64,000 nucleotides of DNA from a virus, in the IMG/VR virus record IMGVR_UViG_3300017971_000283, positions 1 to 64,000 of that record, one strand, 5' to 3'. The position numbers and the translations under genes are program-made. The notes below the pieces were generated by a model. It did not search any database and was not told where the DNA came from. It saw nothing but the letters and a program-made list of their open reading frames with translations. Below, one piece after another: positions 2,747 through 58,493 of the stretch. Numbering within the stretch: the stretch's first letter is position 1; each line of letters begins with the position of its first letter.

Positions 2747-5700
2747 TTATTTATAAATTTTCATTTCAGATGGAACATTTCTCCTATCCCTTTCAACAAT
2801 TACTTCTTCTGATACCCTTTTTATTATCTTTTTGTCAAATTCAACATCAATATTATTTTCAATTTTTATTGGTTCATTATCTCTTTCTCTTAATAGTGCT
2901 TTTATTTCTCTTAATTCTGAAACTATTGTAGAGTCAGTTTGAATTCTACTTCCAGCCATATTTTCAAATCTTGACAAGTCTCCTGAATTAAGTTCTTCAA
3001 GGGCTCGAATACCTTCTGCTGTAATTATTCCTTCAGCTCCAGTTTTGACCGATATTAACCCATCATCACCCAATGACCTATCGATCATACCTCCAGTAGC
3101 ATAAGGTGGTGCTGGAAGACCGTGTTGTTTAAGTACTTGCTCCATATCATAGTGCCAAACCTCATATCTATGACCGTGGCTTTCAATTAAAGCCTTCATA
3201 TCTTCTTTACCCAATTGATTAAAATAATTCAAAACTTTTGTTGCTGCTTCTTTTTTTGTATAATCCCATCCAGGATATTTTCTACTAATCGCTGCCAAAT
3301 CAACAGTTGGAGTATTCTTATACAATTGAGCTATTTGTCCAGCAGCACTAAATTGACTTGCGAGTTGTGAAAGATCTGTTCCAGTCCCGAATGAAAAGGA
3401 TTCACCACTTGCACCTTGAAAAAATGCAGTATTCGCACCTGTAACAGTTGTTGTACCAAATCCTGCGATTTCTTGAGTATATCCAACGCCCTTGGATATT
3501 AGTGCTGCAATATCTTGCTGCCATCTATTAATATCATACTCAAAGGCAAATTTTAATTGAGTTACAGTGGTCCCACCAATTCCAGCCTCATCCATTTGTT
3601 TTTTTATAGTATCCCAAGAACCTTGGCCTGTAGCACCCAATGAACTTATGAATTTCATTGTTGCTGTACTATCCCATCCAGTCTCCCCGGCAACAAAACC
3701 AAGAGCATCCATTTTTGCTGCAATTGGACCTTCAAAATTTTCAACAAATTCACTCATAAATGTCATTGTTACTACGCCATCAGTTCCATATTGTTCAAAA
3801 ATACCACTTATTAAACTGATGGCAGATTTAGAATCACCGGTTATTCCTCCCCAATTTATATTTAAGACCGCTTCCTTATCAGCCAGACCTTTCATAGCAT
3901 CTTCAATTGATTTGGATAAAACTTTAAATTGAGCATTGACATCGGATAAATCAGCTTTAGTTCCGGTATCTCTACTAATACCGCCTGATATACCGACACC
4001 TGTTGCAGTGGCAGTTTGAGTGGTTGAATCTTTTACATTTTTTAAGAACTGATCAGGTGTCATAGTTGTTTTTAAATTTTCAAGATCGCTCATGGTATCA
4101 CTATAAATTTTTTGATATGTTGTACTTGATCCTAAATGTGATTGAGCTTGCTCTAAATACTGAGATGAAAATTTAACAAATTCTTGAACTTCTTCTTTCC
4201 CTCCTGTTTGTGCTTCTGCTCTTAATTTTTCATAATCTTTTGTTGCCATTTCGAATTTTTCTTTAATAGTAGAAACATTTAGGGCACCATATTTCATACC
4301 ATTAATTGTATTATCAATTGTTTTAACTAAACTTTCCATTATTTCTGTTGCTTTTATCCATTTATCTGCTGCTTCAGTAGACGCTTCCATTGCCTCTATA
4401 ATCGATCCTTGCCCTGTACCCATACCTCCTGATATTTGACTTTTGGCTTGTTGTTGCGCCTCTGATGAGGCCTGACCATACCATTGGACTAAAAGATCAG
4501 ATGCAGCAGACAAACTTTCTGCTGTTCCCATACTAATTTGAGTTTGTAGATTTTTCATTGTAAACTCAGCAGAAGTACCACCGCCAGCTTTAAATTCAAT
4601 TTCTGCAATTTGTTGTCTAATATTATCAAATTTTACTGTAGCTTCATCCGCCATATTTAGAATTGAATTTCTAATAGTGGAAATTCTTTGAACTTCTAAG
4701 TTTGTATAGTCGACAACTGTTCCCCCAAGCTGCTTCAATGTTTCTCTATGTTTTTCATAAGCGGCATTTGTATTTTTTACTATAGACTCAACAGCACCAA
4801 GGCTTTCTTGACTTTGAGCAAGGCCATTTATAAAGTTTTCCCTTTCAGATGCAAAAGCACTGTTCATTGCCGTAAAGTCTTCAGTTGTTCCACCAAGTTG
4901 ACGAATACTTTCTGTCATTTCCTCAACTTTTGTTCTAGATTCTTCAGTCCCGGCAATCGAATTAATTAGGGCCTGTCTTTTATCTGCAAAAGCATCATTT
5001 TCTCTTTTTATAAATTCAGCTTGTTTTACTCGTACTTCACCAAGAGCTGTTTCTGAAAACCCAAGTTCTTCAAGTGCTAATAATTGACTGTCAAAAGCAG
5101 TTCCAAGAACTTCAAATCTTGCGGCATATTCGGTTAAGGGTTCCGCCAATGAAATATCAAGGGCTGAATTTATATCAGTCCAAACCTGCTCTATTTGTTG
5201 CATTATTTCAAGGCGTTGGAATGCTGTATCTATTGCATCCATATAAACCGGCTCACCCTCTTCAGTTACAACACCTTTTCCTTCCTCATCAATTTTTTGA
5301 AATTGTTGAGCTATTAAACTACTTTTTGTTTCTTGTGTTAATAAATTTGCACCAATTTCCCCGCCTGCTTGAATATATTGATCAATTAAAGAAATTGTTG
5401 CATCATCCATTACCTGAGAAATTTTATCTTGATAATTAGTTAAAAACCTTGTGATATCTTGTTGCCAGTTTTTTGCATTTAATCTTCCTTCAGGAATTTC
5501 AAAAGTAAAGTCTCCATATGCTTCTAATTGATTAGCAAGAGCAGAAGCATATTCATCGGGTAATTTACCCATTCTATCTAGAGCTTGTTCATTAAAAGTA
5601 TCATTGATATCATTAATTCCATTTTTATAGCTAGCTTCGATCATAGCATACCAATGCATATCATCAGTAATTTCTGTTTCTTTTAATCTGGAGGCAAACC

Positions 5701-8700
5701 CTTTATCTCTACTCCAAGATTGATCTTCCATATAAGTTTGGACATCTTCTTGTTTTCCTAAGTCTCCAAATCGATAAAAATTTTCTTTATTTAATCCAAA
5801 AGCATCACCTATAAAAGAATTTTTTCCAAGTATTGCTGATGTTCCTAAAAGTCCTGATGTAGAAAGTAGTTTTCCAAAACCACCTAATTCGTCTGATGCC
5901 CACTTAGAAAGTAATGCTCCACCTGGATCAGTCCATTCGGCAACAGCAGCACCTCCTGATTTCCATCTTCCCTCAACATCTCCACTTTTCATTGCTGCTG
6001 CAAATTGCTGACCTCCTGTCCTATAATTCTCACCAAATAATTTTTGACTCGCATAAACCATTGCAGGATCAGCAGAATAATCACCAGTACTTACATCTCC
6101 AACCTCTACCCATTTGCCGCCTGATACCATACCTCCCTCAGTTCTTTCAGTCATACCTCTACCGGCTTGCCAACCGACATTAACAAGACTCCCAACCCAT
6201 CCCATTTGACCAAGACCTTCTGCAACTTTATCTAATTTTTTTTGAGTTTCCGTTTGTGCTGCTCCCTCAATTCTAAATCTATATGAAAAATGTTCTGCTA
6301 TATCTGCAAAAGCACCTTTATTTGCAATGAGAAATTCTTTCATTTCTCCCATTGAAAGCCCATCTTTAAAAGCACCACCAAGTTTCCCGATTAATGACGT
6401 AAAGTTTTCTTTTAAATTTTCATCAAGATCACTTAAAAAAGTGTCCATTAATAATTCAATAGTTGGCCCATATCTTTTTTGTCCCTCTAATCCTTCAATT
6501 CTCCATTCTCCCTTTTGTCTAACAGCTTGTTTTTCAGGGGAATCTCCTCGACCATATAAATTATTAAGTTCTTCTTCAAGTTGCCCCTTTAACCCTTCAA
6601 CATAAGAGTCAATTTCGTTACCATCTAAAATTCCACCTCTAAAACTTTTTTTAGCTTTTTCAAGTTCTTCTTTATCTTTTTTTGCCCTTTCCTCATCTTC
6701 AAAAAGAATCATTTGCGCTCTTTTTGAAGCTTCTTCTTTTCCTCCCATTAATGGATCTTCTTTTACTCCCTTTTCATATTTTTTCATTAATTTTTCTTGT
6801 TCTTTTAAAGCCTTTTCCCTTGCCCTTACTTCATGATCAAGTTGCTTATCAACTATTGTCATATGTTTGTCATAATATAAATCCCAAAGGGCATCCCAGT
6901 CTTGGGCATATTGTTCTTGATCAGTAAACCATCTGTCAAGATTATCCAATTCCTTTTCATATTTATTCATACCCATTTGAGCTATTTCAATATTTAATTT
7001 ATCATTTATTTCTTTTTTCTTTTTATTTTCCTTTTCAGCAATTTTAATTAATTCTTTTGAAAGTTTTTCTTCTCTTATTTTTTTTTCTTTTACTGCTTTT
7101 TCTTCTATTTCTTTTTGTTTTTTTATAGATTCCGATAATAACTTATCAGATTTTTCTTTTGCCTTTGCTCTAGCTTCTTCAAGTGTCATTACTTTTTTTA
7201 CAGAGTCACCCTTTTTAAACATTGCTTCTGCTTCTTTCATACTTGATTCATAAGTTCTTTTATTCAAATCAAGCTCTTTTCTTTTTTGCTCATCAAGTTT
7301 TTTTAAGTTTTCTAAATATTGTTTTGTTGCATTTTCATTTATTCCCATTCTTTCTTTTTCAGCTTTTATTGTTGCTTCAGCTTTTTGTTTGATTTCTTCT
7401 TTTGTTCTTTTTGATTCCTCTCTTAATTTTCTTGTGACATCGAGGAAACTTTCACTGCCTCCAATGGCGTCTTTCATCGCCCCTGAAAAACCCTTTAAAC
7501 TTTTAGCTAAATCATCTTGTCCAATAAAACTTAATGCTTTGGCAAGTGTATTTACAAAAGTTGCCATATTTTCCAATATAGTATCGAAAAAACCAAGAAA
7601 AACGGATTTCATTCCTTCAACTGTTACAGCACCTATATATTTGATCGATTCCCAAAAAGAAGCAAATGAGGCAGATGCACCATGAGTTTTTTCAATAATA
7701 TATTCAGCAAAACCTTCCATCCCATAATTAATTGTTTCAAAAGCCTTTTTCCCGGAATATTCAACTTCAATCCATGCTTTGGAAAAAGAATTAATTATTT
7801 CAATCATTGTTGCTCTTACACCTTCAACATTTTCATCTAGCCATCTTCCTAATTGAAATCCGGCTACTGCTGCCATTAAAACACCAAGGGCAACCTGGAT
7901 CATTGTGATTGATCCAGCGGCAACTTGAGCCCTTACACTATTTGTAGCCAGTACTTTATTAAAAGAGCTAAAAAGACCTGTTCCGGTAGCTACAGAAACA
8001 TTATTAGCTTGAATAGCCGTATTATATAACCATGTTGCTGCTGTTGTTGCTGCTGTAATAGTTTTTAATGTCGTCATTATTGCTATATAGGCCAAAACTC
8101 CTTGGCCTAATTTAACAAAAAAATCTGCAAGTTTTAAAATATTATCAGCATGATCTTTAATAAAACTTGCAGTATCTTTTAATGCCCCATAGATTGAGGC
8201 CTTATACTCATCAAAAACATTGATTGCTTGGTCTTGTAAAACTGAACTCAATTCTTTAAAAGCACCAGAAACAGTTGAAGACATTATACCGGCAAGCTCT
8301 TCAGTTTCACCACCAACATTATTAAGTTTTTCTTTTAAATCATCATATGTAGACAAGCTGTCTTTAATAATTAAAGCACTTGAAACCTGTTCTCTTCCAA
8401 ATGCTTTTTCCATTTCTGTTGCTGTCCATCCAGCTTCAGATGCTTTTTCAAAAACTAATCTTAACTTATCTTGAGATGAATTAAGCTCATCAGTTGAAAT
8501 ACCAAGCATACCGGCAGCTTTCCCGGTACTTAGCATAATACCTTTCAACATATTACCTGCTTGACTGGCTTTGATACCACCATTGGCCATAGTGCCTAAG
8601 TATGCTGAAAGTGATTCAACTTCAATACCCATACCCTTTGCTACTGGTGCAGCATATTTAAAGGCTTCACCAAGCATATTGATATCTGTATTTGCTCTTG

Positions 8701-9484
8701 TACTCGTACTAACTAAAATATCAGTAAATCTTGAAAGGTCATTTACACCCAATCCCATTGCTGTCATAGAATCGGTTACAATATCAGAAGCCCTACCAAG
8801 TTCAAGTTCACCGGCAGTTGCAAGATTTAAAATTTTAGGTAATGATGCTATTGAAGTTGCACTATCCCAACCGGCCAAAGCCATATATTTCAACGCTGTT
8901 CCTGCTTCTGTAGCACTAAATTTCGTCGTACTTCCTGCCTCTCTTGCTGCTTTTTGTAAGTCTTTAAATGCCTGCCCACCACCTTCAACACTCATATTGA
9001 TATCAGACATAATACCGCCAACAGTAGTCATAGTCTGCTGGAAGGCTGAACCAATACTTAAAATTTCTTTGACCATATATTGTGCTGAAAATCCAGCAGC
9101 AAACCCCATCACCATACTTTTAAAAGAGGCTTTTATTTTATCAAATGATTTGCTTGTAGATGTGGCTTGGCTTTTAATTTTTTCAAAAGAAGAAGTAATG
9201 GTTTTTGTACCTCTTTCAATATTTGCAGTATCTAATTGAGGTCTTTTAATTTTTTCAAGTGAGGTTTGAGTTTTTATAGCACTTTTTTTAATTTGATCAA
9301 AAGAAGAAGTAACAATTTTCGTATTGGATTGAACTTTTGCAGTGTCTACTGAAGGGTCAATTTTATCAAAAGTTTTTTGCGTAGAATCAGCATCTTTCTG
9401 AATTTTACTTAAAGATTCAGAAATTACTTTTTGACCTTTTACAAAATCAGAAGTATCTAGACTTACTTTAATTGGAGAGGGCAT
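2747..9484 (-). CDS. Tail tape measure protein
   Basis: At 2245 residues this is the longest gene. Residues 1-105 carry three imperfect copies of a Ser/Lys-rich unit ending FDKI, SLEKI or FDKIK. Residues about 130-330 match the TP901-type tape measure core (STKFSATEAGTALKYMALAG and neighbouring Gly/Ala helices). Hydrophobic segments follow near 455-545, then long Lys/Glu coiled coil near 690-900 and a largely helical C-terminal half. Tape measure proteins set tail length at roughly 0.15 nm per residue, which would imply a tail of about 300 nm or more unless it is processed. It begins 47 bases after the chaperone extension stop, behind AAGGAT. Confidence 0.95.
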   Translation of the reverse strand: MPSPIKVSLDTSDFVKGQKVISESLSKIQKDADSTQKTFDKIDPSVDTAKVQSNTKIVTSSFDQIKKSAIKTQTSLEKIKRPQLDTANIERGTKTITSSFEKIKSQATSTSKSFDKIKASFKSMVMGFAAGFSAQYMVKEILSIGSAFQQTMTTVGGIMSDINMSVEGGGQAFKDLQKAAREAGSTTKFSATEAGTALKYMALAGWDSATSIASLPKILNLATAGELELGRASDIVTDSMTAMGLGVNDLSRFTDILVSTSTRANTDINMLGEAFKYAAPVAKGMGIEVESLSAYLGTMANGGIKASQAGNMLKGIMLSTGKAAGMLGISTDELNSSQDKLRLVFEKASEAGWTATEMEKAFGREQVSSALIIKDSLSTYDDLKEKLNNVGGETEELAGIMSSTVSGAFKELSSVLQDQAINVFDEYKASIYGALKDTASFIKDHADNILKLADFFVKLGQGVLAYIAIMTTLKTITAATTAATWLYNTAIQANNVSVATGTGLFSSFNKVLATNSVRAQVAAGSITMIQVALGVLMAAVAGFQLGRWLDENVEGVRATMIEIINSFSKAWIEVEYSGKKAFETINYGMEGFAEYIIEKTHGASASFASFWESIKYIGAVTVEGMKSVFLGFFDTILENMATFVNTLAKALSFIGQDDLAKSLKGFSGAMKDAIGGSESFLDVTRKLREESKRTKEEIKQKAEATIKAEKERMGINENATKQYLENLKKLDEQKRKELDLNKRTYESSMKEAEAMFKKGDSVKKVMTLEEARAKAKEKSDKLLSESIKKQKEIEEKAVKEKKIREEKLSKELIKIAEKENKKKKEINDKLNIEIAQMGMNKYEKELDNLDRWFTDQEQYAQDWDALWDLYYDKHMTIVDKQLDHEVRAREKALKEQEKLMKKYEKGVKEDPLMGGKEEASKRAQMILFEDEERAKKDKEELEKAKKSFRGGILDGNEIDSYVEGLKGQLEEELNNLYGRGDSPEKQAVRQKGEWRIEGLEGQKRYGPTIELLMDTFLSDLDENLKENFTSLIGKLGGAFKDGLSMGEMKEFLIANKGAFADIAEHFSYRFRIEGAAQTETQKKLDKVAEGLGQMGWVGSLVNVGWQAGRGMTERTEGGMVSGGKWVEVGDVSTGDYSADPAMVYASQKLFGENYRTGGQQFAAAMKSGDVEGRWKSGGAAVAEWTDPGGALLSKWASDELGGFGKLLSTSGLLGTSAILGKNSFIGDAFGLNKENFYRFGDLGKQEDVQTYMEDQSWSRDKGFASRLKETEITDDMHWYAMIEASYKNGINDINDTFNEQALDRMGKLPDEYASALANQLEAYGDFTFEIPEGRLNAKNWQQDITRFLTNYQDKISQVMDDATISLIDQYIQAGGEIGANLLTQETKSSLIAQQFQKIDEEGKGVVTEEGEPVYMDAIDTAFQRLEIMQQIEQVWTDINSALDISLAEPLTEYAARFEVLGTAFDSQLLALEELGFSETALGEVRVKQAEFIKRENDAFADKRQALINSIAGTEESRTKVEEMTESIRQLGGTTEDFTAMNSAFASERENFINGLAQSQESLGAVESIVKNTNAAYEKHRETLKQLGGTVVDYTNLEVQRISTIRNSILNMADEATVKFDNIRQQIAEIEFKAGGGTSAEFTMKNLQTQISMGTAESLSAASDLLVQWYGQASSEAQQQAKSQISGGMGTGQGSIIEAMEASTEAADKWIKATEIMESLVKTIDNTINGMKYGALNVSTIKEKFEMATKDYEKLRAEAQTGGKEEVQEFVKFSSQYLEQAQSHLGSSTTYQKIYSDTMSDLENLKTTMTPDQFLKNVKDSTTQTATATGVGISGGISRDTGTKADLSDVNAQFKVLSKSIEDAMKGLADKEAVLNINWGGITGDSKSAISLISGIFEQYGTDGVVTMTFMSEFVENFEGPIAAKMDALGFVAGETGWDSTATMKFISSLGATGQGSWDTIKKQMDEAGIGGTTVTQLKFAFEYDINRWQQDIAALISKGVGYTQEIAGFGTTTVTGANTAFFQGASGESFSFGTGTDLSQLASQFSAAGQIAQLYKNTPTVDLAAISRKYPGWDYTKKEAATKVLNYFNQLGKEDMKALIESHGHRYEVWHYDMEQVLKQHGLPAPPYATGGMIDRSLGDDGLISVKTGAEGIITAEGIRALEELNSGDLSRFENMAGSRIQTDSTIVSELREIKALLRERDNEPIKIENNIDVEFDKKIIKRVSEEVIVERDRRNVPSEMKIYK

Positions 9485-9530: not shown

Positions 9531-9896
9531 TTAAGTAGTTTTACTTGCTTGCCATTCCATGTGAACATTATCTAATGCTTTCACGAAACGACGAATTTTT
9601 TGTCTTTCTTCAAAATCCATTATTTGGTTCTCATCCAAATATCCGGTGATAGTTTGATAATCAATAGTTGAGGCTGAAAAGCCATCGCCGGTTTTATATA
9701 GACATAGTTCGCAATATATTTTGTAAATATGTTGTACTCTTTCAAAATCTTGTTTAAGAGGTAATCTATCAACTTTCTTTTTACAGAGTCCATGTCCTTC
9801 ATTTGCTTTTTTGATCCATTCTTGTAAGCCGCCAAAAGTATCTTCACCGGTTTTTTTATTTTTAATTTCTAAAATTACTCTGTAATAATCAGTGAG
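9531..9896 (-). CDS. In-frame extension of the tail chaperone behind a UGA
   Basis: The frame of the upstream chaperone continues for 121 codons after its UGA (9897-9899) and ends at TAA 9531. It fills almost the whole gap to the tape measure gene. No ATG, GTG or TTG with a ribosome site opens it. The +1 and -1 frames at the UGA close within a few codons, so a frameshift there does not explain it. The translated stretch has normal composition, for example DFEERQKIRRFVKALDN. In most tailed phages a frameshift fuses two chaperones (lambda G and GT) at this spot. Here stop-codon readthrough would give a 287-residue fusion. A rare internal start or a recent nonsense mutation are alternatives. Confidence 0.6.
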   Translation of the reverse strand, partial: LTDYYRVILEIKNKKTGEDTFGGLQEWIKKANEGHGLCKKKVDRLPLKQDFERVQHIYKIYCELCLYKTGDGFSASTIDYQTITGYLDENQIMDFEERQKIRRFVKALDNVHMEWQASKTT

Positions 9897-10394
9897 TCAA
9901 GATTCTTCAAAATTATCTTTCTGAATTTGAAAAATTTCTCTTTCAAGACTCATACTCAAAACAAATTCTTTAAATGCTTCAAGTTCAGGATCAGAAAGCC
10001 ATTCATAGGCAGTTTTTACAGAGTAAGGAACCCAAGCATCAGGATTAGTAATTGTTTTTTTTGTAAAACTTTCACTTTCATCTTCAATAAAAAGTCGATT
10101 ATAAATTTCCTCATGATTATCGGATGGCATATTTTCCCAATTCAAAATAATATGGGTTGCCGTTGCTTTATTTATATTTTCATTTACTACACTGTCAGGA
10201 ATACTTTGTCCGAACCTAAGAGTTTTTAGATAAGGTTTGTTTAATTTTTTTACATAATCCTCATAATTTTTATTCCCATGCTTTGCAATTAGCACCTTGC
10301 TTCCATATTCTTCCATACCTGGAACCGGAACCCAAACGCCTTTTTCTGCCATTTTAAGATCATGACCCATTACTTTTTTGAGAGGATTTGCCAT
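9897..10394 (-). CDS. Tail assembly chaperone (gpG-like)
   Basis: The 165-residue product starts at ATG 10394, chosen because it has AGGAGATTAACA directly upstream; a longer frame to 10511 would run through the tube-gene terminator. It sits between the tube and tape measure genes, the usual place of lambda gpG/GT-type chaperones, which coat the tape measure during assembly and are absent from the virion. The protein is acidic toward its C-terminus. It ends in UGA followed by C, a leaky context, and its frame stays open for 121 more codons. Confidence 0.7.
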   Translation of the reverse strand: MANPLKKVMGHDLKMAEKGVWVPVPGMEEYGSKVLIAKHGNKNYEDYVKKLNKPYLKTLRFGQSIPDSVVNENINKATATHIILNWENMPSDNHEEIYNRLFIEDESESFTKKTITNPDAWVPYSVKTAYEWLSDPELEAFKEFVLSMSLEREIFQIQKDNFEES

Positions 10395-10526: not shown

Positions 10527-11909
10527 TTAATTACTTTTCTGAAACATAATCTGATAGTCATTTGTAGCTGAAACGCTTGCCTTCCAGGTCATGTTTTGCA
10601 TAACATCAGCATTAACTCCTGTAGCTTGCCCACCAGGATTTTGCTGAATTTTTAGTCTTGGAATATATACTGCAATACTTTCGCCATCATTCCCAACAGA
10701 CCTTACGGAAATTGAAAGTGCAGTATTATTAATAAATTTTTCATAATATGTTTGACCATCAAAAAACATATTGAGATTACCAGTAATAGCAGAAAAACCA
10801 AACCCTACACCGGCATTACCTAACACTCCAATACCAGACTGTCCTCTTGCATTATTGTTTAAAGTAAAGTTAAACTCTGAAATCAGAGTAGTGCCAAAAA
10901 CAACTGGCGTATTGTCAATACTTAAACTTGCAACATCTGATGTTGCATTCAAGGATTCATTAGTAGGCGCAGCAACAAGAGTACTATGAAAGGCTGAAGT
11001 ATCAACATCAGTCGATACAAGATCAGCACCAATAAACTCCATACTCCCAGTAATAATAGCTTTACTTGTAAAAGTAAGAGTCATTTGACTTGGAGTCATT
11101 CCTCTAAAAAGAGTATATGCCCCAACATCATTATTAATTCGCTCAATACTAAAACTCTTTTTTGTTACTCCATCTTTCAAAAATGCAAATGGTACAAGAT
11201 ATCCGCTTGCAGCAACTTCATCGGTCAATGTTTCTTCTACTGTCAAATCAGTTGCCGTAACAGCAGATACAGTGACAACTTTATTATTAGTTGAAGTTGT
11301 GAATCCAACTAAAGTAATACACATTCCAACTTCAACTAGTGTTGTAAAATCATAAAGTGCTGCACTATTAATTTTCCCCGAAGCAATAGAAAGGTCACCC
11401 GGATCAATTACCCATCTTACATTTCCATCAACAGTTTCAGTTGCAAGCGTATCATTCATTGTAAGTACAGTATCAGTCAATGAAAGAATTTCAAGAGAAC
11501 CGGTATTTAGTGTTGAGCCTACAATTTGGACAAATTCACCGGCAGTAAATCTTTTTGTAAGATCAGTTACGCCAGCAATTTCAATTGTATCTGCTGTTAC
11601 AGTACTTGTGACAGATCCCTGTGCTTTCCCATAAAAAGAATGAGCAAAAACACCTTCCAAAAGATCTTCATTCAAATTCTCAGTTGAAAGTTCAAAACTA
11701 ACTGAACCTGATGGATTAGCTCCTACAACAACCGCATCAAGACTTTTTCTATCACTCCTGATAGTATTTGAATCAGTTGTTTCAACGCCATGAGAAAGGC
11801 TTTCAGATGTAATACCGATTGATTTCATTGTAGGTGTAGTTGGCAAAACACCAAAAGTAGTTTCTTTAATAACTGCAATATCAATTTGATTAGTTTCTGC
11901 AAAAGACAT
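10527..11909 (-). CDS. Major tail tube protein
   Basis: The 460-residue product has the N-terminal pattern of the Phage_tube_2 tail tube family: ETTFGVLPTTPTMKSIGITS, then ESLSHGVETTDSNTIRSDRK, then a Gly/Ser beta region (GANPSGSVSFELSTENL). It is longer than typical 300-350-residue relatives, with Thr/Val-rich inserts near 100-235 that may be surface beta domains. It forms the hexameric tube around the tape measure. The start has AGGAGGAATAAAA upstream, inside the end of the preceding zinc-finger gene, and a strong terminator follows the stop. Confidence 0.85.
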   Translation of the reverse strand: MSFAETNQIDIAVIKETTFGVLPTTPTMKSIGITSESLSHGVETTDSNTIRSDRKSLDAVVVGANPSGSVSFELSTENLNEDLLEGVFAHSFYGKAQGSVTSTVTADTIEIAGVTDLTKRFTAGEFVQIVGSTLNTGSLEILSLTDTVLTMNDTLATETVDGNVRWVIDPGDLSIASGKINSAALYDFTTLVEVGMCITLVGFTTSTNNKVVTVSAVTATDLTVEETLTDEVAASGYLVPFAFLKDGVTKKSFSIERINNDVGAYTLFRGMTPSQMTLTFTSKAIITGSMEFIGADLVSTDVDTSAFHSTLVAAPTNESLNATSDVASLSIDNTPVVFGTTLISEFNFTLNNNARGQSGIGVLGNAGVGFGFSAITGNLNMFFDGQTYYEKFINNTALSISVRSVGNDGESIAVYIPRLKIQQNPGGQATGVNADVMQNMTWKASVSATNDYQIMFQKSN

Positions 11910-50233: not shown

Positions 50234-51529
50234 TTATTCCTCACTTGCTTTATAACAATCATCAAAAAGATTGCATTCATCACAATTTTCAAAATCACCC
50301 AAATCCTTACCAAAAAAACCTCCTTCAGGGCATTCTTTTTCTTTCTTTTTCCCGGACTTTTTCTTTTTCCCGGACTTTTTCTTTTTTGCTTCCTTTTCTA
50401 TTTTCTTTTTTTCTTTCTCGCACCCCTTTTTATTTGGGCATTCTTCACATTCATCATAGTCTCCAAACTCTTTCCCAAAAATTCCGTCCTCTATAAAACA
50501 TTCATTCGGATCATTTTCAGGCTCTTCATTTTCAGGCTCTTCATTTTCAGGCTCTTCATTTTCAGGCTCTTCATTTTCAGGCTCTTCATTTTCAGGCTCT
50601 TCATTTTCAGGCTCTTCATTTTCAGGCCCTTCATTTTCAGGCTCTTCATTTTCAGGCTCTTCATTTTCAGGCTCTTCATTTTCAGGTTCCGGTTCTTCTT
50701 CAAAATGAGCCTTATATACAATCCTATAATACTTTTCAAAATCCCATTTACCATCTTTAATCGGCATATTCAAAAGCATTTCTAATGCTGGTGCTTCCTC
50801 ATAAACATCCTCTGGAATATCATATTTTCTACTATCTAATTTATGCCCTATACTTCCGGTATGATCGCCATCCGATCCCTCAAATGATTTTTTTACCCCC
50901 TGAAAACTCACTATATTTTCAGAAAGTCCTTCATATACTGAGATTGTAACTTCTTCATCTTCATCTTCATCATAACCACCCTTTAAGAGAGGATTTAATT
51001 CTTTCATCATATAATGATTTGATGATTCAAATATCATTGATTTTTTTTCTTTTTTAAACCAAATAAAATATAGTTCTCTTGGCTTAAATTTAAGTTTTGA
51101 AAGAACTGTTTTCCAGTCAGCACCAGTTCTTCTTAGTTCTTGAAAATCTTCGCAAACGGGACAGGGCATATCAAAAGTTTTTTTTGTACAAATAAAAGTT
51201 TCATCTCCAATATTAGGATGAGTATAAAATTCAAGAAAAATATCATAATCATCAACAAACTTTGCACTTTTACCAAAGAACTTTTTTCTTTCCTTACTTA
51301 CTTCAAAATCATCTTTATCTTTAATAAAAGAAGGATGAAGAGTCGTCATGGGAAATGGGATAACATTAAATCGATTTGTTCCCATTTGAACAGAATACAT
51401 TTCCCATGGATCAGCTTTCAAAAGATAAGGTTTTGAATTTACCTTTTCTTTTTCAGATTCCTTTTGATCTTTCTTTGCTCGCATCTTTGCCAAAATTTCT
51501 TCTCTTCGTGACATTTTTTTCTTCGCCAT
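50234..51529 (-). CDS. gp32-like single-strand DNA-binding protein
   Basis: The 431-residue product has a basic start (residues 1-30) and a core with FDMPCPVCEDFQELRR near 120, as in T4 gp32-type zinc SSBs. Residues about 280-342 are twelve PENEE repeats. Two related Cys-rich modules follow (GIFGKEFGDYDECEECPNKK and GGFFGKDLGDFENCDECNLF) separated by KKKSGKKKK. Relatives end in a plain acidic tail that recruits partners; this one has an expanded tail with zinc-like ends. AAAGGAAAGACAAA precedes the start. Confidence 0.75.
   Translation of the reverse strand: MAKKKMSRREEILAKMRAKKDQKESEKEKVNSKPYLLKADPWEMYSVQMGTNRFNVIPFPMTTLHPSFIKDKDDFEVSKERKKFFGKSAKFVDDYDIFLEFYTHPNIGDETFICTKKTFDMPCPVCEDFQELRRTGADWKTVLSKLKFKPRELYFIWFKKEKKSMIFESSNHYMMKELNPLLKGGYDEDEDEEVTISVYEGLSENIVSFQGVKKSFEGSDGDHTGSIGHKLDSRKYDIPEDVYEEAPALEMLLNMPIKDGKWDFEKYYRIVYKAHFEEEPEPENEEPENEEPENEEPENEGPENEEPENEEPENEEPENEEPENEEPENEEPENEEPENDPNECFIEDGIFGKEFGDYDECEECPNKKGCEKEKKKIEKEAKKKKSGKKKKSGKKKEKECPEGGFFGKDLGDFENCDECNLFDDCYKASEE
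50511..50690. repeat. Tandem 15-bp repeat in the SSB gene
   Basis: About twelve near-identical copies of the unit TTTTCAGGCTCTTCA (plus strand) encode PENEE. One copy has GGCCCT, giving Gly. Copy number is likely variable by slippage. Confidence 0.95.
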
Positions 51530-57914: not shown

Positions 57915-58493
57915 TTAATTCTTCATCAAACCATTTGTTCTCAATACCTTAAAAACAACCTTAGTATGATACCAGATGTTTTGGAGTGTATTCCTTGCAC
58001 CTCCAGTCATCTCCTCTAGTTCTTCCAAAGTAACATCTTCATTTTCGAGAAGTGCATTAACCACTTGAACTCCAATTGGCTTTTTCTTTTCCTTCTTTTC
58101 CTTCTTTTCCTTCTTTTCCTTCTTTTCCTTCTTTTCCTTCTTTTCCTTCTTTTCCTTCTTTTCCTTCTTTTCCTTACCAGGTTTTTTCTTTTTTACTTCT
58201 TCCGCTTCTTCAGTTTCAGTTTCAGTTTCAGTTTCAGTTTCTTCTTTAGATACATATTCAAATTTAGGACAAAATTCTTCTTCTACTTGTCCAAAATAAT
58301 CTAATACATCTTTTGGCAACTCATCAGTATCTCCATTAAAATGGATTTCTTGCACTGCAAGACAAAAATCATCATGTAATTTTTTCTTTTTTACTCCTAC
58401 AGTTTTGATTTTATTTTTAAGTAATCCTGTTTCATTAATTTGCTTTGCGACATCTTTCAATTCAGACATTTTTAATTCTTCAATATATCCCAT
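57915..58493 (-). CDS. Low-complexity Lys/Glu protein with a C-terminal folded domain
   Basis: The 192-residue product has an N-terminal helical domain (1-75), a Glu/Thr run (ETETETETETEE near 85), a long KEKKEKK array (about 105-137) and a compact C-terminus (NEDVTLEELEEMTGGARNTL) resembling a winged-helix or HTH. The linker may be an extended charged helix. Co-location with the clamp suggests a replication or transcription role. Confidence 0.55.
   Translation of the reverse strand: MGYIEELKMSELKDVAKQINETGLLKNKIKTVGVKKKKLHDDFCLAVQEIHFNGDTDELPKDVLDYFGQVEEEFCPKFEYVSKEETETETETETEEAEEVKKKKPGKEKKEKKEKKEKKEKKEKKEKKEKKEKKEKKKPIGVQVVNALLENEDVTLEELEEMTGGARNTLQNIWYHTKVVFKVLRTNGLMKN
58085..58172. repeat. 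9-bp tandem repeat in the Lys/Glu protein gene
   Basis: TTTTCCTTC is repeated about nine times in perfect register, encoding the KEK array. Confidence 0.9.

Follow-up and report, generated by a model that had tools for sequence, protein, structure and literature searches.

The DNA analysed here (the window, 64,000 nucleotides) spans positions 1 to 64,000 of the 69,526-base IMG/VR virus record IMGVR_UViG_3300017971_000283, the genome of an uncultured tailed phage that is AT-rich (30% GC). Its late genes are encoded by the minus strand and follow the standard order of terminase, tail terminator, tail tube, chaperone region and tape measure. Elsewhere in the window, two genes contain long low-complexity repeats (positions 50234-51529 and 57915-58493), one acidic (ENEEP units) and the other lysine-rich (KKEKKEK). 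The features of the chaperone region and its two neighbours are as follows.

10527..11909, minus strand: tail tube protein, the gene upstream of G (Pfam Phage_tube_2, E 1.7e-34)
9900..10394, minus strand: G, tail assembly chaperone by homology, 165 codons, ATG start at 10394, UGA stop directly after
9897..9899, minus strand: in-frame UGA stop, context GAA UCU UGA CUC, next base C
Junction bases at the UGA as assembled: TCTTGACTCACT and, within 9890-9905, TCTTGACTC
9534..9896, minus strand: T, downstream chaperone domain by homology, zero frame, 121 codons, TAA stop at 9533-9531
2747..9484, minus strand: tail tape measure protein, the next gene downstream of T, starting at 9484 (phrog_1533, E 5.8e-62; Pfam PhageMin_Tail)

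G is preceded by a Shine-Dalgarno sequence (AAGGAG at 10407-10402) and, as a first-pass annotation of this DNA had claimed for the gene before the tape measure, it stops at a UGA-C; the coordinates given there were right, the gene being on the minus strand. The same annotation held that past the UGA the frame remains free of stops for 121 codons and has coding character, that this stretch has no usable start, and that both alternative frames at the UGA close within a few codons, and all of this was borne out. The first ATG, GTG or TTG in the T frame is a TTG at codon 87, ahead of which we found rarer start candidates only (ATT, ATC and ATA, with ATT at codons 8 and 11). The -1 frame meets a UGA no more than 3 codons from the G stop, and a TAA closes the +1 frame after some 8 codons. 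We compared the length of T with 3315 stop-free runs from alternative frames of genes in this genome: the longest was 97 codons and none reached 121. The coding score of the T frame, based on codon usage, was +0.18 bits per codon compared to -0.31 and -0.33 for the other two frames. Because the T frame scores as gene-like and no alternative-frame run attains its length, the open stretch is more than chance, and its coding character was further upheld by a match to phrog_3817.

A PHROG search returned matches for each half of the region. The upstream part, G, matched phrog_8233 (E 1.7e-14) and phrog_313 (E 3e-7), both labelled "tail assembly chaperone", and the downstream part, T, matched phrog_3817 ("tail chaperonin", E 5.7e-5) on its own. 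These matches indicate that both halves of a chaperone pair are present in a single frame with a stop between them. By homology, the upstream part thus matches a tail assembly chaperone of the lambda gpG type and the downstream part a T-type domain. Furthermore, G is homologous to the pre-tape-measure chaperones of phiCbK and of Mesorhizobium phage Cp1R7A-A1, and the setting is that of the G/GT family: a G-type protein flanked by Phage_tube_2 and PhageMin_Tail genes, with a T-type domain directly 3' of it that lacks a standard start of its own. T is intact and retains the majority of the conserved positions listed for it.

Cultured relatives were found through tail tube and chaperone homology, and ten phages made up this set (DSS3P8, RcXuper, KF4, R5C, Xp15, Cp1R7A-A1, phiCbK, Mwe-JY26, Pan1 and EBPR siphovirus 3, the last being environmental). 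T lies in the -1 frame relative to G in all ten. The junction reads GGGAAAC or AAAAAAC in nine of them, with the G stop 1-2 codons after, and EBPR siphovirus 3 has GGGAAAG 66 nt upstream of its G stop; the annotation of phiCbK gives a programmed frameshift. In addition, 30 of 48 IMG/VR records found via terminase had a chaperone match (some of the 30 loci are near-duplicates). T was -1 in 24 of the 25 loci with a T match and +1 in the remaining one, and in the five loci lacking a T match the long open frame was the -1 frame. Slippery sites among the 30 loci include GGGAAAC, AAAAAAC, AAATTTT, TTTTTTA and CCCAAAC. Neither the ten phages nor the 30 loci included a T in frame 0, and a fused gene with a sense codon at the junction was found in none of the relatives examined, G and T being in different frames.

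Two variations were seen among these relatives. In a chaperone subgroup (loci L191, L192, L193, L195 and L200) an A AAT TTT heptamer replaces the usual GGGAAAC or AAAAAAC; it lies about 12 nt before the G stop in L192, L193, L195 and L200, and 24 nt before it in L191. Locus L201 (record G002, at about 1665) is the sole relative whose T is shifted +1 with respect to G (TTC TAC AAA AGC CGC TGA GGA TGA GG), and its sequence suggests that the recoding type changed a second time, independently, in the chaperone family.

We built a T profile from 27 relatives, leaving the window out and beginning at the slippery codons, and used it to search all three frames of the sequence surrounding the UGA. The profile matched frame 0 only (33.6 bits), with no match in +1 or -1. 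Profile position 3, where the residues encoded by the slippery codons (GK/KK) have just ended, aligned with the codon that immediately follows the UGA. A full-length MAFFT alignment agreed with this placement (EES*LTDYY in the window versus EGNLTEFLK in KF4). Since T lies -1 in the relatives (+1 in one), mostly behind a slippery heptamer, the junction alignment places the UGA in the column of their frameshift site. If a fusion of 287 codons acquired a nonsense mutation at random, the chance of its falling on the junction column would be about 1/287. Moreover, the G stop of most AAATTTT-site relatives lies 12 nt past AAT TTT, and the same holds in the window (AAT TTT GAA GAA TCT TGA). Judging from this shared spacing, the UGA looks like the ancestral G stop, with T brought into the frame of G; the exact indels behind the frame change cannot be reconstructed from relatives as distant as these.

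A programmed -1 or +1 frameshift does not describe the window, where T shares frame 0 with G and no slippery site gives access to it. The sole AATTTT-like site (T AAT TTT) does not have the form X XXY YYZ, and a shift to -1 there would meet a stop immediately. A +1 shift at UCU-UGA-C was also rejected, the +1 frame closing about 8 codons on without T homology. We found no usable slippery site joining the two parts: T continues the very frame that the UGA interrupts, and neither of the other two remains open for long.

UGA is used as an ordinary stop in this genome. It accounts for some 13 of 54 tabulated stops, several of them overlapping the next start, and it terminates a dozen genes other than G. 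Tryptophan is encoded by UGG 207 times, and long genes are without in-frame UGA. The use of UGA as an ordinary stop and of UGG for tryptophan indicates the standard code. The UGA of G is the sole one of the 54 tabulated stops with C as the next base. In bacteria, UGA-C is generally described as the weakest stop, one that terminates poorly.

Taken together, the comparison of frames and junctions across relatives argues that UGA readthrough replaces the ancestral -1 frameshift in the G/GT pair of this AT-rich long-tailed phage, a reading to which we assign a probability of roughly 0.63. The downstream reading frame is in phase with G and coding, as readthrough calls for, the UGA stands at the frameshift junction of the relatives, and we recognised no other route from G to T. 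The first-pass annotation had already interpreted the locus as a UGA readthrough fusion rather than a frameshift, and the comparative sequence evidence supports what we, too, infer. Under readthrough, most ribosomes would terminate at the UGA and release G, and a small fraction (a few percent) would decode UGA-C as an amino acid, most likely tryptophan via near-cognate tRNA-Trp, and go on for 121 codons to produce a G-T fusion. Low-level readthrough would in this way set the G:GT ratio. If the two products act as in lambda, G would coat the tape measure protein and G-T would recruit the tail tube subunit.

No unusually stable RNA structure was found 3' of the UGA in comparison with shuffled sequence (z-scores -0.95 to 0.23), a point against readthrough, though bacterial UGA leakiness does not strictly require structure. 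UGA readthrough occurs at about 1/15 in Qbeta (PMC8067240) and at 6% in B. subtilis (PMC7918605, PMC6316719), and natural UGA readthrough is thus near the level needed for a ratio like that of lambda, where G:GT is about 30:1 (PMC5009743). It has been previously reported that G-T frameshifting is widely conserved among long-tailed phages (PMC5009743), and Atkins et al. 2016 state that the downstream frame can move to zero given a different recoding type, their example being murine leukaemia virus gag-pol (PMC5009743). We found no report of readthrough at the G/T junction in the open-access literature, the coverage of which is incomplete.

A second contig, IMGVR_UViG_3300028840_005057, aligned to the window over 38,485 bp with 6 mismatches and 1 gap (7 sites) and was identical to it across the whole chaperone gene, including the UGA junction. 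Three of the six single-base differences cluster within 400 bases towards the 3' end of the tape measure gene (window 3176-3567). Because this contig may come from a related sample, it counters an assembly error and says little on long-term conservation. Single-protein scans of IMG/VR with the tail chaperone, the tail tube, the terminase (whole and in part) and the DNA polymerase returned the near-identical contig or nothing, and a single-protein scan of GTDB genomes gave no closer relative beyond that contig. Broader sampling with a tape-measure fragment (75 viral and 25 genome loci) and with a terminase alignment (80 loci) yielded distant relatives only, and a coarse scan of tape-measure loci for G, a stop and T in one frame revealed no other convincing case. 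A general scan for adjacent in-frame open reading frames was set aside, as GC-rich DNA gives many chance cases, and an alignment of distant chaperones varied too much to be of use in scanning a collection. The comparison of relatives proposed by the first-pass annotation was accordingly split in its outcome: the near-identical contig shares both the UGA and the downstream frame, whereas the other relatives are distant and frameshift instead. The in-frame UGA was present in no diverged relative among those found, so its conservation over evolutionary time cannot be shown.

The main rival to readthrough is that T was recently silenced: an indel would have put T into the G frame behind the stop, the phage would live on G, and T would be a young pseudogene. 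The in-frame arrangement is confined to one lineage, as this account would have it, and the two contigs, which have only 7 differences across 38.5 kb, are no proof by their agreement that the arrangement has long been conserved. However, none of the 121 codons of T is a stop, its coding bias and most conserved positions have been kept, and of 287 codons the stop occupies precisely the one where the two domains meet. The G:GT ratio is, moreover, reported to be crucial for lambda tail assembly (PMC5009743). We regard such silencing as unlikely.

Some other event at the UGA, namely a phage or host suppressor tRNA, selenocysteine insertion, an in-frame hop or non-AUG re-initiation (for example at the ATT of T codon 8), would in each case yield T from this sequence, and we judge this group quite improbable. 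A phage suppressor tRNA was rejected, as the 69.5-kb record contains no tRNA gene. Selenocysteine is opposed by the lack of a stable structure at the UGA and of an Rfam SECIS match; no Rfam match to SECIS or any other structured RNA reached the gathering threshold. For a hop, no codon matching UCU occurs close by in frame after the UGA. Re-initiation could draw on the ATT codons at T positions 8 and 11, but the relatives reach T solely by recoding from G.

It is very improbable that the UGA is a sequence or assembly error, either hiding a sense codon or arising from an indel that masks a normal frameshift. The sequence is a metagenome consensus, which leaves room for such errors, but the second, non-identical contig, possibly from a related sample, has the same bases, and the UGA was not contradicted when the contig consensuses were compared. 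An indel further upstream would be of no help, since T and the UGA share one frame and there is no slippery heptamer past the UGA. Were the codon a sense codon, G and T would form a complete fusion, which is seen in no examined relative. Finally, that the virus or its host decodes UGA as an amino acid throughout can be dismissed as next to impossible: the genome is AT-rich (30% GC), as are hosts with codes 4 and 25, but its stop usage (13 of 54 stops UGA, UGG 207 times, long genes without in-frame UGA) rules out an alternative genetic code.

The putative readthrough pair can be set beside known systems. Lambda G/GT and the pairs of phiCbK, DSS3P8, Xp15 and Vibrio KF4 are alike in their place between tail tube and tape measure, and their long form starts with G and extends at the same junction column; in phiCbK, DSS3P8, Xp15 and KF4 the G and T parts are also homologous to those of the window. 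These phages use a -1 frameshift at a slippery heptamer (for lambda, PMC5009743), whereas the window has a frame-0 T behind UGA. In Qbeta, UGA readthrough of the coat gene gives a minor extended phage protein, A1, at a few percent (PMC8067240), as we infer for the window, but Qbeta is an RNA phage and its virion coat protein belongs to an unrelated family. Murine leukaemia virus gag-pol uses stop readthrough at the same gene junction where other retroviruses frameshift (PMC5009743); it differs in having UAG with a pseudoknot, eukaryotic ribosomes and unrelated genes. In prfB (RF2) recoding likewise occurs at a slowly terminating UGA, but it shifts to +1, whereas the product in the window would stay in frame 0, the +1 frame closing about 8 codons on. 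The prfB site is a UGA-C.

We consider it rather likely that a tailed phage lineage has swapped a widely conserved programmed frameshift for programmed UGA readthrough at the same junction. For annotation, such a swap would mean that some tail chaperones are overlooked when slippery sites are what is searched for. The G/GT frameshift is among the most widely conserved recoding events, kept across phages otherwise unrelated in sequence, which suggests that selection acts on the ratio of the two products. If the swap is real, the recoding type changed and the junction and both domains were kept, and it would be the ratio, not frameshifting itself, that is conserved. The locus would then parallel, in a phage, the retroviral gag-pol case, where readthrough in one lineage stands in for the frameshifting of others, and a direct test would be possible by exchanging the two signals and measuring tail assembly.
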